Below, in pieces: positions 13,823 through 26,108 of a stretch of 35,195 bases of DNA. A model generated the notes under the pieces. That model made no database searches and was not told the DNA's origin. It was given only the letters and a program-made list of their open reading frames with translations. Source of the stretch: an uncultured Pseudomonadota bacterium. Its GTDB lineage: Bacteria > Pseudomonadota > Alphaproteobacteria > RF32 > CAG-239. How positions within the stretch are numbered: the stretch's first letter is position 1; each line of letters starts with the position of its first letter. Location of the stretch: NCBI GenBank assembly GCA_902785935.1, contig CADAAN010000007.1:1-35195 (forward strand), written 5' to 3'. Position numbers and translations under genes: made by a program.

Positions 13823-13851
13823 TTGACTTTTGTTTTTGAATATGGCAAAAT
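13823..13851 (+). promoter_or_regulatory. Promoter of RNA-A copy 2
   Basis: TTGACT at 13823-13828, a 17-base spacer and CAAAAT at 13846-13851, in the same position relative to the RNA as the promoter of copy 1. Confidence 0.6.
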
Positions 13852-13858
13852 CAAAAAC

Positions 13859-14107
13859 AGATAGAGAAGAAACTTCTTTATCAAGTACCCTGATAGGGTG
13901 CGGGGCTGTAATGAGCCTTTGTTTCGTGCAGTGAAGGATAACACTGTTTTTGGTGTTGTTTTTTTATTTTAAACAACGACTTATCCCCGACAGATGCTCG
14001 GGGAGTCCGTAGCGGATGTCCAATGCAAATTCCTAAAGGTTGCGGAAGTCATTACACGAAACATGATTCATTAACTCCCCGTCGCTCCTTAAAGGTGCGG
14101 CTTTTTT
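13859..14107 (+). ncRNA. Structured RNA of unknown family (RNA-A copy 2)
   Basis: Second copy of the RNA at 2221-2474. It shares 31 identical bases (13877-13907) around the ACCCTGATAGGGT hairpin and 25 identical bases (13953-13977), but the helices differ in sequence while staying paired. The closing stem is TAATGAG 13909-13915 with TTCATTA 14067-14073 plus TTTCGTG 13922-13928 with CACGAAA 14055-14061, where copy 1 has TTAGAA/TTCTAA and GACTTTGAG/CTCAAAGTC. TCCGTAGC 14006-14013 pairs with GTTGCGGA 14039-14046, where copy 1 has CTGATGGC/GCTATCAG. It ends in the same kind of terminator. It lies directly upstream of the first BspA-like gene. Confidence 0.82.
14081..14107 (+). terminator. Intrinsic terminator of RNA-A copy 2
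   Basis: GTCGC at 14081-14085 faces GCGGC at 14097-14101 with a CCTT/AAGG core between them, and six T follow at 14102-14107. Confidence 0.7.
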
Positions 14108-14110
14108 GTA

Positions 14111-14187
14111 ATGACGTTAACAATAACCCGTCATGCTGAATTTATTTCAGCATCTCTTTAGATCCCGAAACAAGTTCGCCATGACGT
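14111..14187. repeat. REP-like dispersed palindrome inserted before the BspA-like gene
   Basis: Contains CGTCATGCTGAA, then a GCTGAA...TTCAGC hairpin, and GATCCCGAAACAAGTTCG ending in ATGACG. This type of CGTCAT-flanked palindrome is widespread as an intergenic repeat. It begins and ends with ATGACGT (14111-14117 and 14181-14187). It separates the RNA-A terminator from the 17-base flank that in copy 1 lies 8 bases after the terminator, so it looks like an insertion. Confidence 0.65.
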
Positions 14188-14212
14188 AAAAAAGAAAAAT
14201 AGGAGAAATATT

Positions 14213-15499
14213 ATGAAAACACGATATTTAATTTTAATTGCAGGGTGTGCACTTTATGGCACAAATGCCTATGCCGCTTGCGCAAACAACCAAACTTGCG
14301 GCACAAACTGCTGTTGGGATTTAACTGGTGGAACGCTGACAATTTCTACAGATAATAAAGCAAGAGCAGGCGCGATGGAAAATTATGGCCTTTCTGAAAC
14401 TCCTTGGTATTCGCAAAGAAAAACTATCAAATCCGTTGTGGTTGAAGGTGCTAATGAAACGACAGGAACAAAGGGTATTACATCAATCGGAAATTATGCC
14501 TTTTATGGTGCTGAAAAAATGACTTCTGTGGTAATCCCAGAATCGGTTACATCAATTGGAGATAGTGCCTTTTTTAAGGCCAGTAGCTTAACCTCAGTTA
14601 CGATACCTAATTCAATAACAGCGATTGCGGATAGAGCTTTCTATGGTGCCATCAGCTTAACCTCAGTTACGATTCCCGATTCGGTCACTTCGATTGGAGC
14701 GGCTGCTTTTAGTAGTGGTACCAATTATGGAAGATTAGAAACTCTTGTAATTCCCGATTCGGTCACTTCGATTGGAGACGTTACATTTGGTATGCAACCA
14801 AATTTAACTTCATTAATTTTGAGCGATTCAGTTGAATCAATAGGTTATAGAATATTTAATCAAGCTCCTAAATTAAATTCTCTTGTTATTCCTGATTCGG
14901 TTTCGTTGATTGCGGATAATGCTTTTTTGGGTACAGGTTCTAACGGTACACTTTATTGCCCATCTACACTAGATTGCACAGGTAAAGGTTATAACGGCAC
15001 GATTGTCAGCTACACCAAAGGTGATGACGGGGTTTATACCACATCGGACGGTACGACTTATGCCTCGCCGGAAGATATGCAAAATAATCTTGCCTGCACG
15101 ACGGATTGCGCCGAAAAGGTTGCGGCATATAAAGATGCCAAGGCTCAATCGATGGCAGGAGGCAGTCTTTGTGCCACAAAAGATGCGTGCCTCAATCTGT
15201 TAGATATGGTTTCTGACAGTAATTATACCTGCGGTACAGGTGGCGCAAAAAATACAATTGCAAATTGCAGTGCGTATGTCAAAGCAAACAATATTGAACT
15301 TGCAAGCCTTTATGATAGAACTCCGCCTGTTAAGGAAGAAGAAATCGTCACAAGCAACGGCGGTGAAGACACGGGTGGTCTTGACGATGTTGAAAAAACA
15401 CCCTCAGCCCCAGCTCGCGCAGACATTCGCATCTATACCATCGATGAGGCCAATCAAGTTGCGGGCAAAACAAATTCCTTCAAAATAAGGTACAGATAA
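14213..15499 (+). CDS. Secreted BspA-like leucine-rich-repeat protein 1
   Basis: The 428-residue product starts with a signal peptide (MKTRYLILIAGCALYGTNAYA, cut near residue 21), then a Cys-rich segment and GGTLTIS. About seven BspA/LRR_5 repeats follow (residues about 80-260), of the form LTSVTIPDSVTSIGAAAF. The next part has cysteines and short helices, then a flexible acidic Gly/Thr/Pro linker and a C-terminal tail RIYTIDEANQVAGK ending in FKIRYR. The tail is almost identical to that of the protein at 24498-25922. BspA-like repeats mediate adhesion to host matrix or other cells; here function is inferred from the family. ATG 14213 has the ribosome site TAGGAG. RNA-A copy 2 and a REP-like element lie immediately upstream. 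Confidence 0.88.
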   Translation: MKTRYLILIAGCALYGTNAYAACANNQTCGTNCCWDLTGGTLTISTDNKARAGAMENYGLSETPWYSQRKTIKSVVVEGANETTGTKGITSIGNYAFYGAEKMTSVVIPESVTSIGDSAFFKASSLTSVTIPNSITAIADRAFYGAISLTSVTIPDSVTSIGAAAFSSGTNYGRLETLVIPDSVTSIGDVTFGMQPNLTSLILSDSVESIGYRIFNQAPKLNSLVIPDSVSLIADNAFLGTGSNGTLYCPSTLDCTGKGYNGTIVSYTKGDDGVYTTSDGTTYASPEDMQNNLACTTDCAEKVAAYKDAKAQSMAGGSLCATKDACLNLLDMVSDSNYTCGTGGAKNTIANCSAYVKANNIELASLYDRTPPVKEEEIVTSNGGEDTGGLDDVEKTPSAPARADIRIYTIDEANQVAGKTNSFKIRYR

Positions 15500-24497: not shown

Positions 24498-25922
24498 TTA
24501 ACGATAGCGAATCTTAAATGTGTTTATTTTTCCTGCCACCTGATTCGCCTCATCGATGGTATAAATGCGCTTATCAGCACGCACAGGGGCTGATGGAGTT
24601 TCAACGACATCGCCAGTACCGCCTGTGCCAGTACCGCCGTTTCCTTGACTGTCACCGCTGTAACTATCTTGTTGCGGATTATATGCTAAAGTGATATTAT
24701 TTCCGACATTTTCCAAATTAAGGCCAAAGGCTTCGCGATACATAAAAGGAAGAGCCTTTTCAAGTGCATCTTGGCAGTTATCACCCGTACAATTGATTTG
24801 AAGCTGCCTTGCACGTAGATTTACTTTTGCCTCTTCAAGATATGGTTGTGCGGATTCCAAATATTCTTGAAACCCTTGTTTGTAAGGTAGCATCTCTTTC
24901 AAATCTGCTTCCAATTCTTCTTTATTCATACCCATTTGTTCCAATTGTTCAGGATCTATTTCTTCTCCTGTTTGTATTTTATAGAATTCTGCCAATATTG
25001 GTTTCATCTTATCATAAGCATCCATTCCTTCATTCTCGTATAATTCCAGTAATTCTGAATACACTTTATACTGTCCATACGAAGAAAAGCCTTCGCCGTA
25101 GCTATTATTATCAAGTAGCTCTGCAAGATTCATTTGAGCTAAATTTGAATCAGATACTGTTATGTTTGTTAAACCACTTAAACTGCCAAATGCACCTTCT
25201 CCGATAGTTTCTACCGAATCCGGTATTGTCAGCGATGTCAAACTTGTAGCACCACTAAAGGCACTGGATCCAATAGATGTCACAGAATCAGGTATCGTCA
25301 ATGATGTCAAACTACTCGCATTTTTAAAAGCATCCATCCCAATAGATGTCACAGAATCAGGTATCGTTAGAGAAGTTAAACTTGTGGCTCCCATAAAGGC
25401 ACCATCTCCAATAGATGTAACCGAATCAGGTATCGTCAATGATGTCAAACTTGTGGCATTGCTAAAGGCTTCAGTTCCAATAGATGTAACCGAATTAGGG
25501 ATAGTCAGGGAAGTTAAACTTGTGGCATTGTCAAAGGCATGTTCTCCGATAGATTTCACCGAATTTGGGATGGTTAATGATGTTAAGCTACCGGCATAAC
25601 GAAAAGCATTCTCTCCGATAGATTTCACCGAATTTGGGATGGTTAGTGATGTTAAGTTGTTGGCAGCATAAAAGGCTGTATCCCCTATGCTTGTAATTCC
25701 TTCTTCCACAACAATGGATGTAATGCTGCCGATTGAATCAGCCCATGGAGCACTACCAGTATAGCTACCATCATAATTTGTCATCTCACCCTTGCCGGAA
25801 ATGGTTAAAGTACCATCAACCAAATTTGCCGTACAATCGGTGCCGCAAGACCAACTCTCAGCTCTCAAATTTGCAGATAAAACAGTTGTCATCATTAATA
25901 CAAATATAAATTTTTTGTTCAT
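24498..25922 (-). CDS. Secreted BspA-like leucine-rich-repeat protein 2
   Basis: The 474-residue product has a signal peptide (MNKKFIFVLMMTTVLSANLRA, then ESWSCGTDC), the segment DGTLTISGKGEMTNYDG, and eight BspA/LRR_5 repeats of about 23 residues (TSLTSLTIPDSVTSIGDGAF type). A helical acidic region with LSDSNLAQMN, YSELLELYENEGMDAYDKMK and EEIDPEQLEQMGMNKEELE follows, then a Gly/Thr linker and the tail RIYTIDEANQVAGK ending FKIRYR. I chose ATG 25922 because GGAG precedes it and a signal peptide follows; the longer frame runs into the leader RNA. The repeats at nucleotide level are nearly identical, which allows recombination. Likely a surface or secreted adhesin-type protein, by family analogy. 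Confidence 0.88.
   Translation of the reverse strand: MNKKFIFVLMMTTVLSANLRAESWSCGTDCTANLVDGTLTISGKGEMTNYDGSYTGSAPWADSIGSITSIVVEEGITSIGDTAFYAANNLTSLTIPNSVKSIGENAFRYAGSLTSLTIPNSVKSIGEHAFDNATSLTSLTIPNSVTSIGTEAFSNATSLTSLTIPDSVTSIGDGAFMGATSLTSLTIPDSVTSIGMDAFKNASSLTSLTIPDSVTSIGSSAFSGATSLTSLTIPDSVETIGEGAFGSLSGLTNITVSDSNLAQMNLAELLDNNSYGEGFSSYGQYKVYSELLELYENEGMDAYDKMKPILAEFYKIQTGEEIDPEQLEQMGMNKEELEADLKEMLPYKQGFQEYLESAQPYLEEAKVNLRARQLQINCTGDNCQDALEKALPFMYREAFGLNLENVGNNITLAYNPQQDSYSGDSQGNGGTGTGGTGDVVETPSAPVRADKRIYTIDEANQVAGKINTFKIRYR
25200..25700 (-). repeat. Tandem 69-base repeats coding for LRR_5 units
   Basis: Eight units of 69 bases encode the repeats of BspA-like protein 2; the central ones differ at only a few positions. 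Copy number could vary between strains by slippage or recombination. Confidence 0.75.
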
Positions 25923-26108
25923 ATCAATTCTCCAATTTACAAAATAAAAAAATTCCGTTTCAAATAACCTAAAACGGAGGAGCTGATAAACTGTAGTTGC
26001 ACAGATGAACTTATTCGCCGCCAACATATAACGCTTATATCGTCCGCTCCCCTTAAAGGAGCAATGCAACTATTGATGTTTATCAAACACCGCAACCATT
26101 TTGGTTAC
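25923..26108 (-). promoter_or_regulatory. Structured leader with internal terminator upstream of BspA-like gene 2 (RNA-C)
   Basis: From the predicted start near 26108 the leader forms nested helices: TGATAAAC (26085-26078) with GTTTATCA (25991-25984), TAGTTGCA (26072-26065) with TGCAACTA (26001-25994), and a GCTCC/GGAGC hairpin at 26046-26062. It then contains an intrinsic terminator, CCGTTT (25977-25972) with AAACGG (25960-25955) plus a T run, about 30 bases before ATG 25922. This could be a separate sRNA or a transcription-attenuation leader. No known family recognised. Confidence 0.55.
25945..25977 (-). terminator. Terminator inside the leader of BspA-like gene 2
   Basis: On the minus strand CCGTTT and AAACGG form a stem (25977-25972 with 25960-25955), followed by seven T. 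It lies upstream of the coding region, so read-through decides gene expression if the leader is continuous with the gene. Confidence 0.65.

Follow-up and report, generated by a model that had tools for sequence, protein, structure and literature searches.

Terminator-platform riboswitches, such as the c-di-GMP-I class, are 5' leaders in which a terminator and an antiterminator are mutually exclusive, and numerous copies precede surface and pilus genes. The put and EAR RNAs are structured leader RNAs that let RNA polymerase pass terminators. RNA-A, the RNA described here, resembles the c-di-GMP-I type in its place in the 5' leader, its apparently exclusive terminator and antiterminator, and its repeated occurrence ahead of surface and pilus genes. 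Gene position and swap tests indicate the 5' leader and expression platform that are expected of a riboswitch. Unlike that type, RNA-A has no sequence match to any known Rfam riboswitch model, whether the copies in the window, 20 class-wide loci, or the plasmid and viral relatives are searched. RNA-A is also a structured leader RNA like put and EAR, but its terminator adjoins the element and has a 5' arm that is complementary to an element strand.

The cloning of sRNA-Xcc1 (Rfam RF02221) in Xanthomonas yielded an RNA of 88 nt, and a free, trans-acting transcript of this length is reported for Xanthomonas only (PMC2996969). In Xanthomonas integron cassettes, sRNA-Xcc1 sits 5' of symE (PMC12444791), a leader-like place, as for RNA-A. 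The whole 87-nt RF02221 consensus aligns weakly with the G2-P5-P6-C2 segment of RNA-A. Its layout, a closing helix round two hairpins, is also found in RNA-A, where the antiterminator, P5, and P6 covary; the closing helix, GgCcGGggG:CccCCgGcC, corresponds to the RNA-A antiterminator. The scores are 22.2 bits (E 0.14) for window copy 2, 37.2 bits for locus L301, and 27 bits for L332 and L307, so that RNA-A, at 22-37 bits, falls short of the membership threshold of 53 bits. Unlike sRNA-Xcc1, which is described as trans-acting, RNA-A is approximately three times longer and adds P0, P0a, P1, P2, P3, P4, and a separate terminator. The sRNA-Xcc1 consensus fragment had no match in plasmids.

We read RNA-A and RF02221 as distant homologues, with RNA-A below the threshold and thus not a member. 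No Rfam family was matched at its curated threshold by the window copies, the 20 class-wide loci, or the plasmid and viral relatives, and a literature search found no description of the RNA-A leader. The preliminary description of this locus had proposed a possibly new family. That proposal agrees with the Rfam results, but in view of the weak full-length alignment it should read that RNA-A is apparently a new, much larger relative of the little-understood sRNA-Xcc1.

RNA-A in the window

The window is the whole stretch of DNA that was analyzed, 35,195 nt of contig CADAAN010000007.1 (GCA_902785935.1) from an uncultured Pseudomonadota bacterium (Alphaproteobacteria; RF32; CAG-239). Two copies of RNA-A are present on the + strand, at the sites where they had been described: copy 1 at 13859-14107, identified by its fold and a covariance model match, and copy 2 at 2222-2473 (previously 2221-2474). 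In a dinucleotide-shuffle fold test, the z scores were -6.5 for copy 1 and -7.4 for copy 2, and 0 of 200 shuffles folded as well.

Copy 1 is preceded by a promoter read in the sequence, TTGACT and TATGGCAAAAT (13823-13851, +), and leads the gene at 14213. This ORF (14213-15499, +) lies 3' of copy 1 with AGGAG and an ATG, and encodes a secreted BspA-type LRR protein of 428 aa (PF13306, E 5.7e-38). A palindromic dispersed repeat of the CGTCATGCTGAA..TTCAGCATC..GCCATGACG type (14108-14190, +) lies between the terminator and the ribosome binding site (RBS) of copy 1, and similar inserts widen this gap in ~16 RNA-A copies of the same genome. Copy 2 has no clear gene downstream. Its leader is intact, yet a 16-codon ORF alone precedes tRNA-Phe, and copy 2 is either an apparent orphan leader or one whose gene was lost.

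Copy number and distribution

BLASTN finds ~40 copies of RNA-A at 70-80% identity in the window's own genome. The covariance model R2, which has 251 positions and was built on own-genome copies, gives 75 matches in this 1.46-Mb genome, of which ~73 are clear. The two doubtful matches are C10:26060 (22 bits, the weakest, overlapping an RNA-B match) and C15:23135 (28 bits, without the normal 3' end). A model of the 3' part, R1, was set aside for its poor automatic structure. The RNA is therefore not the two-copy element that it had been taken for, with ~73 copies in its own genome and many more in relatives.

A covariance-model search of related gut alphaproteobacterial genomes, which the preliminary description had suggested, finds abundant homologues: RNA-A is present in 127/152 genomes and 14/16 genera of the family. 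All 11 genomes of the genus carry it, with 1 to 75 matches each (the highest being 75, 63, and 54). It is also found in 28/385 genomes drawn from the class, most of the 28 in other families. The named relatives are metagenome assemblies, for the most part of Alphaproteobacteria from the gut and rumen; the exact pattern of the window's RNA-A subclass had 0 matches in named genomes. With the distant copy L309 as the query, relatives were found on 243 plasmids, mostly of Agrobacterium and Rhizobium.

Several individual loci stand apart. The core G2-P5 pattern is matched by 12 viral contigs from IMG/VR (L317-L328), and the full-length model matches 12/12 of them (E < 0.001), mostly over the whole element; the family-type pattern had 0 matches in viral contigs. 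The contigs with Gastranaerophilales or Erysipelotrichaceae labels that carry family-type copies (L168, L181, L197), three in the list of named relatives, are probably misbinned. At L305 and L307-L309, in larger alphaproteobacterial genomes, the element is retained, but without a U run after C2. Tandem RNA-A leaders precede small homologous ORFs at L146 518-1244 (+), where there are three, and at L131 2489-2994 (-), where there are two.

Genomic position and downstream genes

Among the copies of the window's own genome, a TTGAC-type promoter stands at the start and an intrinsic terminator at the end; a -35 motif (TTGAC or TTTAC) occupies the promoter place in 67 of 74. An ATG with an RBS follows RNA-A in 65 of the 75 matches, and 49 of these lie 12-44 nt past the terminator. 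This gap would be too short for a second promoter, and the gene must then be transcribed through the terminator. Because RNA-A has its own promoter and terminator and is followed by a gene with an RBS, it is, as far as the sequence indicates, a 5' leader and not a free-standing RNA. A free two-copy sRNA was ruled out by copy number and gene position.

The genes behind RNA-A mostly encode BspA-type LRR surface proteins and prepilins. Among 61 downstream proteins, LRR_5 is present in 34 and RHS repeats in five; a prepilin-like GRSM start occurs in nine proteins. The motif RIYTIxEANxVAGKTNxxxIRYR recurs at the C terminus of many downstream LRR proteins and may serve as a signal for sorting or anchoring. 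Judged from sequence, the corresponding genes of other genera appear to encode lipoproteins, autotransporter-like or outer-membrane proteins, prepilins, glycosyltransferases, and exported nucleases. In six plasmid relatives, the RNA ends 38-68 nt before a gene on the same strand, which is traM in two cases.

Secondary structure

The structure of RNA-A, as predicted from its sequence, is strongly supported by covariation. Across 39 own-genome copies, 97.5% of cells are paired and 34/55 pairs have changed on both sides; 0/500 shuffles reach these values, and slid partners pair at 38-49% at most. Since the structure was derived from these copies, the 57 copies from other genomes are the better test: 98.1% of cells are paired and 46/55 pairs are compensatory (slid versions, 40-46%), in an alignment that is biased towards the model to which it was fitted. 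A covariation scan without a supplied structure puts the same stems first. The selection on RNA structure that had been proposed from two copies is thus upheld in both sets, and the compensatory stems named at that time are real, with P2a, P2b, and P5 covarying across the 39 copies.

In copy 1 (+ strand), the element begins with the hairpin P0 (13860-13882), predicted by folding, with base pairs that covary at its foot. The hairpin P0a, GTACCC-TGATA-GGGTGC (13885-13901), covaries in relatives; the stretch ACCCTGATAGGGT, earlier described as conserved and unpaired, is this hairpin. The closing stem P2 (13910-14072), composed of P2a (13910-13915:14067-14072) and P2b (13921-13928:14055-14062), has the strongest covariation among the stems. 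Inside it, the hairpin P3a (CAGTG/CACTG, 13929-13946) covaries, as does P5 (14006-14046), which carries the conserved GGATGTCCA (14014-14022) and CTAAAG and has 8/8 compensatory pairs. The P5 motif ATGTNCA..AAAG is kept in 187/196 RNA-A copies. The alternative hairpin P6 (14049-14066) pairs TCAT (14049-14052) with ATGA (14063-14066) and is exclusive with P2b. The element ends in an intrinsic terminator, GTCGC..GCGGC with a U run (14081-14107), which is predicted by folding and covaries.

Alternative pairings

Four short G/C strands have alternative partners. In one set, C1 (CCCCGA, 13985-13990) pairs with G2 (TCGGGG, 13998-14003) as P4 (13985-14003), and G1 (13902-13905) pairs with C2 (14077-14080) as P1. 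In the other set, the P3a loop (GGATAA, 13936-13941) pairs with a strand overlapping C1 (TTATCC, 13981-13986) as a pseudoknot, G1 pairs locally as P1x (13904-13907:13914-13917), and G2 pairs with C2 and the terminator 5' arm. The last helix, the antiterminator, is formed in copy 1 by CGGGGAG (13999-14005) and CTCCCCG (14075-14081), spanning 13999-14081, and was found by the covariation scan and the swap tests. In most relatives it extends further into the terminator arm than in copy 1.

In the swap test, the duplex energy of each copy was compared with the energy after strands were exchanged within its group (163 copies, 2000 swaps). The z scores were -12.1 for P4, -11.4 for the pseudoknot, -10.3 for the antiterminator, -4.9 for P1, and -3.9 for P1x, values from which the effects of relatedness among copies are not fully removed; the four decoy pairings gave values no larger than 1.1 in either direction over all groups. 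The median antiterminator length is 10-11 bp, and 162/163 copies have 8 bp or more. Class-wide, the z scores were -7.7 for the antiterminator and -7.1 for P6 (0/2000), and compensations in the antiterminator include CCAGAAG:CTTCTGG (L310) and CCGGGTG:CACCCGG (L306). Outside the genus, the extension that reaches the terminator arm hardly varies (GGUC:GACC), so that swapping is uninformative for it. The GG of this extension is unpaired in P4 yet still conserved.

This covariation supports two exclusive folds: a putative OFF fold composed of P1, P4, and the terminator, and a putative ON fold composed of the pseudoknot and the antiterminator. A nested fold with the antiterminator forced lies 17-20 kcal/mol above the minimum in a calculation that omits the pseudoknot and P2. 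If the ON state is real, this cost implies that it relies on the pseudoknot, on timing, on a bound factor, or on coexisting with P2. Within the subclass of the window copies, the overlap between the antiterminator and the terminator arm is slight, and in subclass B the antiterminator requires a bulge. An antiterminator formed from the P0a 3' arm was also considered and rejected: it has a swap signal in this genome only and fails in subclass B.

A second leader family, RNA-B

A second leader family, RNA-B, emerged when LRR_5 genes not preceded by RNA-A were examined. In the window, RNA-B (25946-26108, -) lies with a terminator before the other LRR_5 gene, which encodes a secreted protein of 474 aa (24498-25922, -). 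RNA-B is ~165 nt long, has a fold z of -4.6, and has no Rfam match; 96.2% of cells are paired (0/500 shuffles). There are 64 matches in the window's own genome, and RNA-B is present in 108/152 family genomes. The two leaders look unrelated. Their plans are similar, with an early hairpin, a local hairpin competing with a long stem, and a G-rich strand complementary to a pre-terminator strand; the swap signal of a putative antiterminator in RNA-B is weak (z -1.8). RNA-B also occurs in tandem (C32, C47). LRR_5 is the largest surface-protein family of the genome, and RNA-A or RNA-B precedes 72/80 LRR_5 genes (90%; 35 by A, 37 by B) versus 6.7% by chance. Together, the two families number 138 leaders in 1.46 Mb.

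Proposed attenuation and alternative explanations

RNA-A probably works in cis to attenuate transcription from within the 5' leader of surface and envelope genes. The leader position, the terminator, and the covariation for both folds are read directly from the sequence. RNA polymerase would begin at the element's own promoter, transcribe the ~250-nt RNA, and then reach the intrinsic terminator just 5' of the RBS. In the OFF state, G2 would be held by P4, G1 and C2 would form P1, and the terminator would form. In the ON state, the P3a loop would take the P4-forming strand, leaving G2 free to pair with C2 and the terminator 5' arm, and the gene would be transcribed. Any factor that favors the pseudoknot over P4, be it a protein, a small molecule, or a signal of another kind, would set all RNA-A-led genes jointly. 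Alternation between the two folds in the cell, the direction in which they regulate, and a signal acting in trans are inferences. The genome keeps a GGDEF gene, and c-di-GMP is still a conceivable candidate for this signal.

Protein-guided antitermination of the put, EAR, or LoaP type, where the RNA recruits or contacts the polymerase to carry it past the terminator and no fold switch occurs, is an unlikely account of RNA-A. It would suit the compact structure adjoining the terminator, the terminator's fixed position despite a sequence that differs between subclasses, and the regulation of surface genes, as in known cases. It is opposed by the element strands that are complementary to the terminator arm and co-vary with it. 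Quite unlikely as well is a trans-acting sRNA: the terminator would release a 250-nt RNA with other messages as its targets, and adjacency to genes would be secondary. In its favor, a promoter and a terminator belong to each unit, no clear gene lies behind the 2222 copy, and an 88-nt RNA had been cloned for the relative sRNA-Xcc1 (PMC2996969). In most copies, however, an RBS and ATG lie at a near-constant distance past the terminator, an arrangement kept across genera and plasmids, and 73 near-identical regulators sharing their targets would be redundant. Some genomes of the genus hold many copies (75, 63, and 54 matches), as would also be expected of a mobile or selfish repeat that travels with surface genes without regulating them. 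Compensatory stems, a fixed orientation and RBS distance, and the 72 of 80 LRR_5 genes behind A or B argue against such a repeat, which is highly improbable.

RNA-A is a real, widespread leader, with good comparative evidence for a switch by attenuation and an unusually large, coherent gene set. The wider interpretation is evenly balanced: RNA-A may be a new class of signal-sensing leader RNA across Alphaproteobacteria, previously visible through the fragment sRNA-Xcc1 alone, that was amplified to ~73 copies in gut members and, with RNA-B, gates nearly the whole BspA-like surface proteome. If this is true, the 138 attenuators may form one of the largest leader-RNA regulons per genome. In this bacterium, two RNA leaders precede nearly all of the principal surface-protein family. 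An orphan, widely conserved RNA would gain a testable function in transcription attenuation of surface and envelope genes, and sRNA-Xcc1, described as trans-acting, may itself be a leader fragment. The signal sensed may reveal how gut bacteria select what to display.

The plasmid relatives before traM would provide cultured test systems in Agrobacterium and Rhizobium. These two relatives, at L331 2503-2709 and L335 901-1084, lie directly 5' of this gene, which encodes a conjugation repressor.
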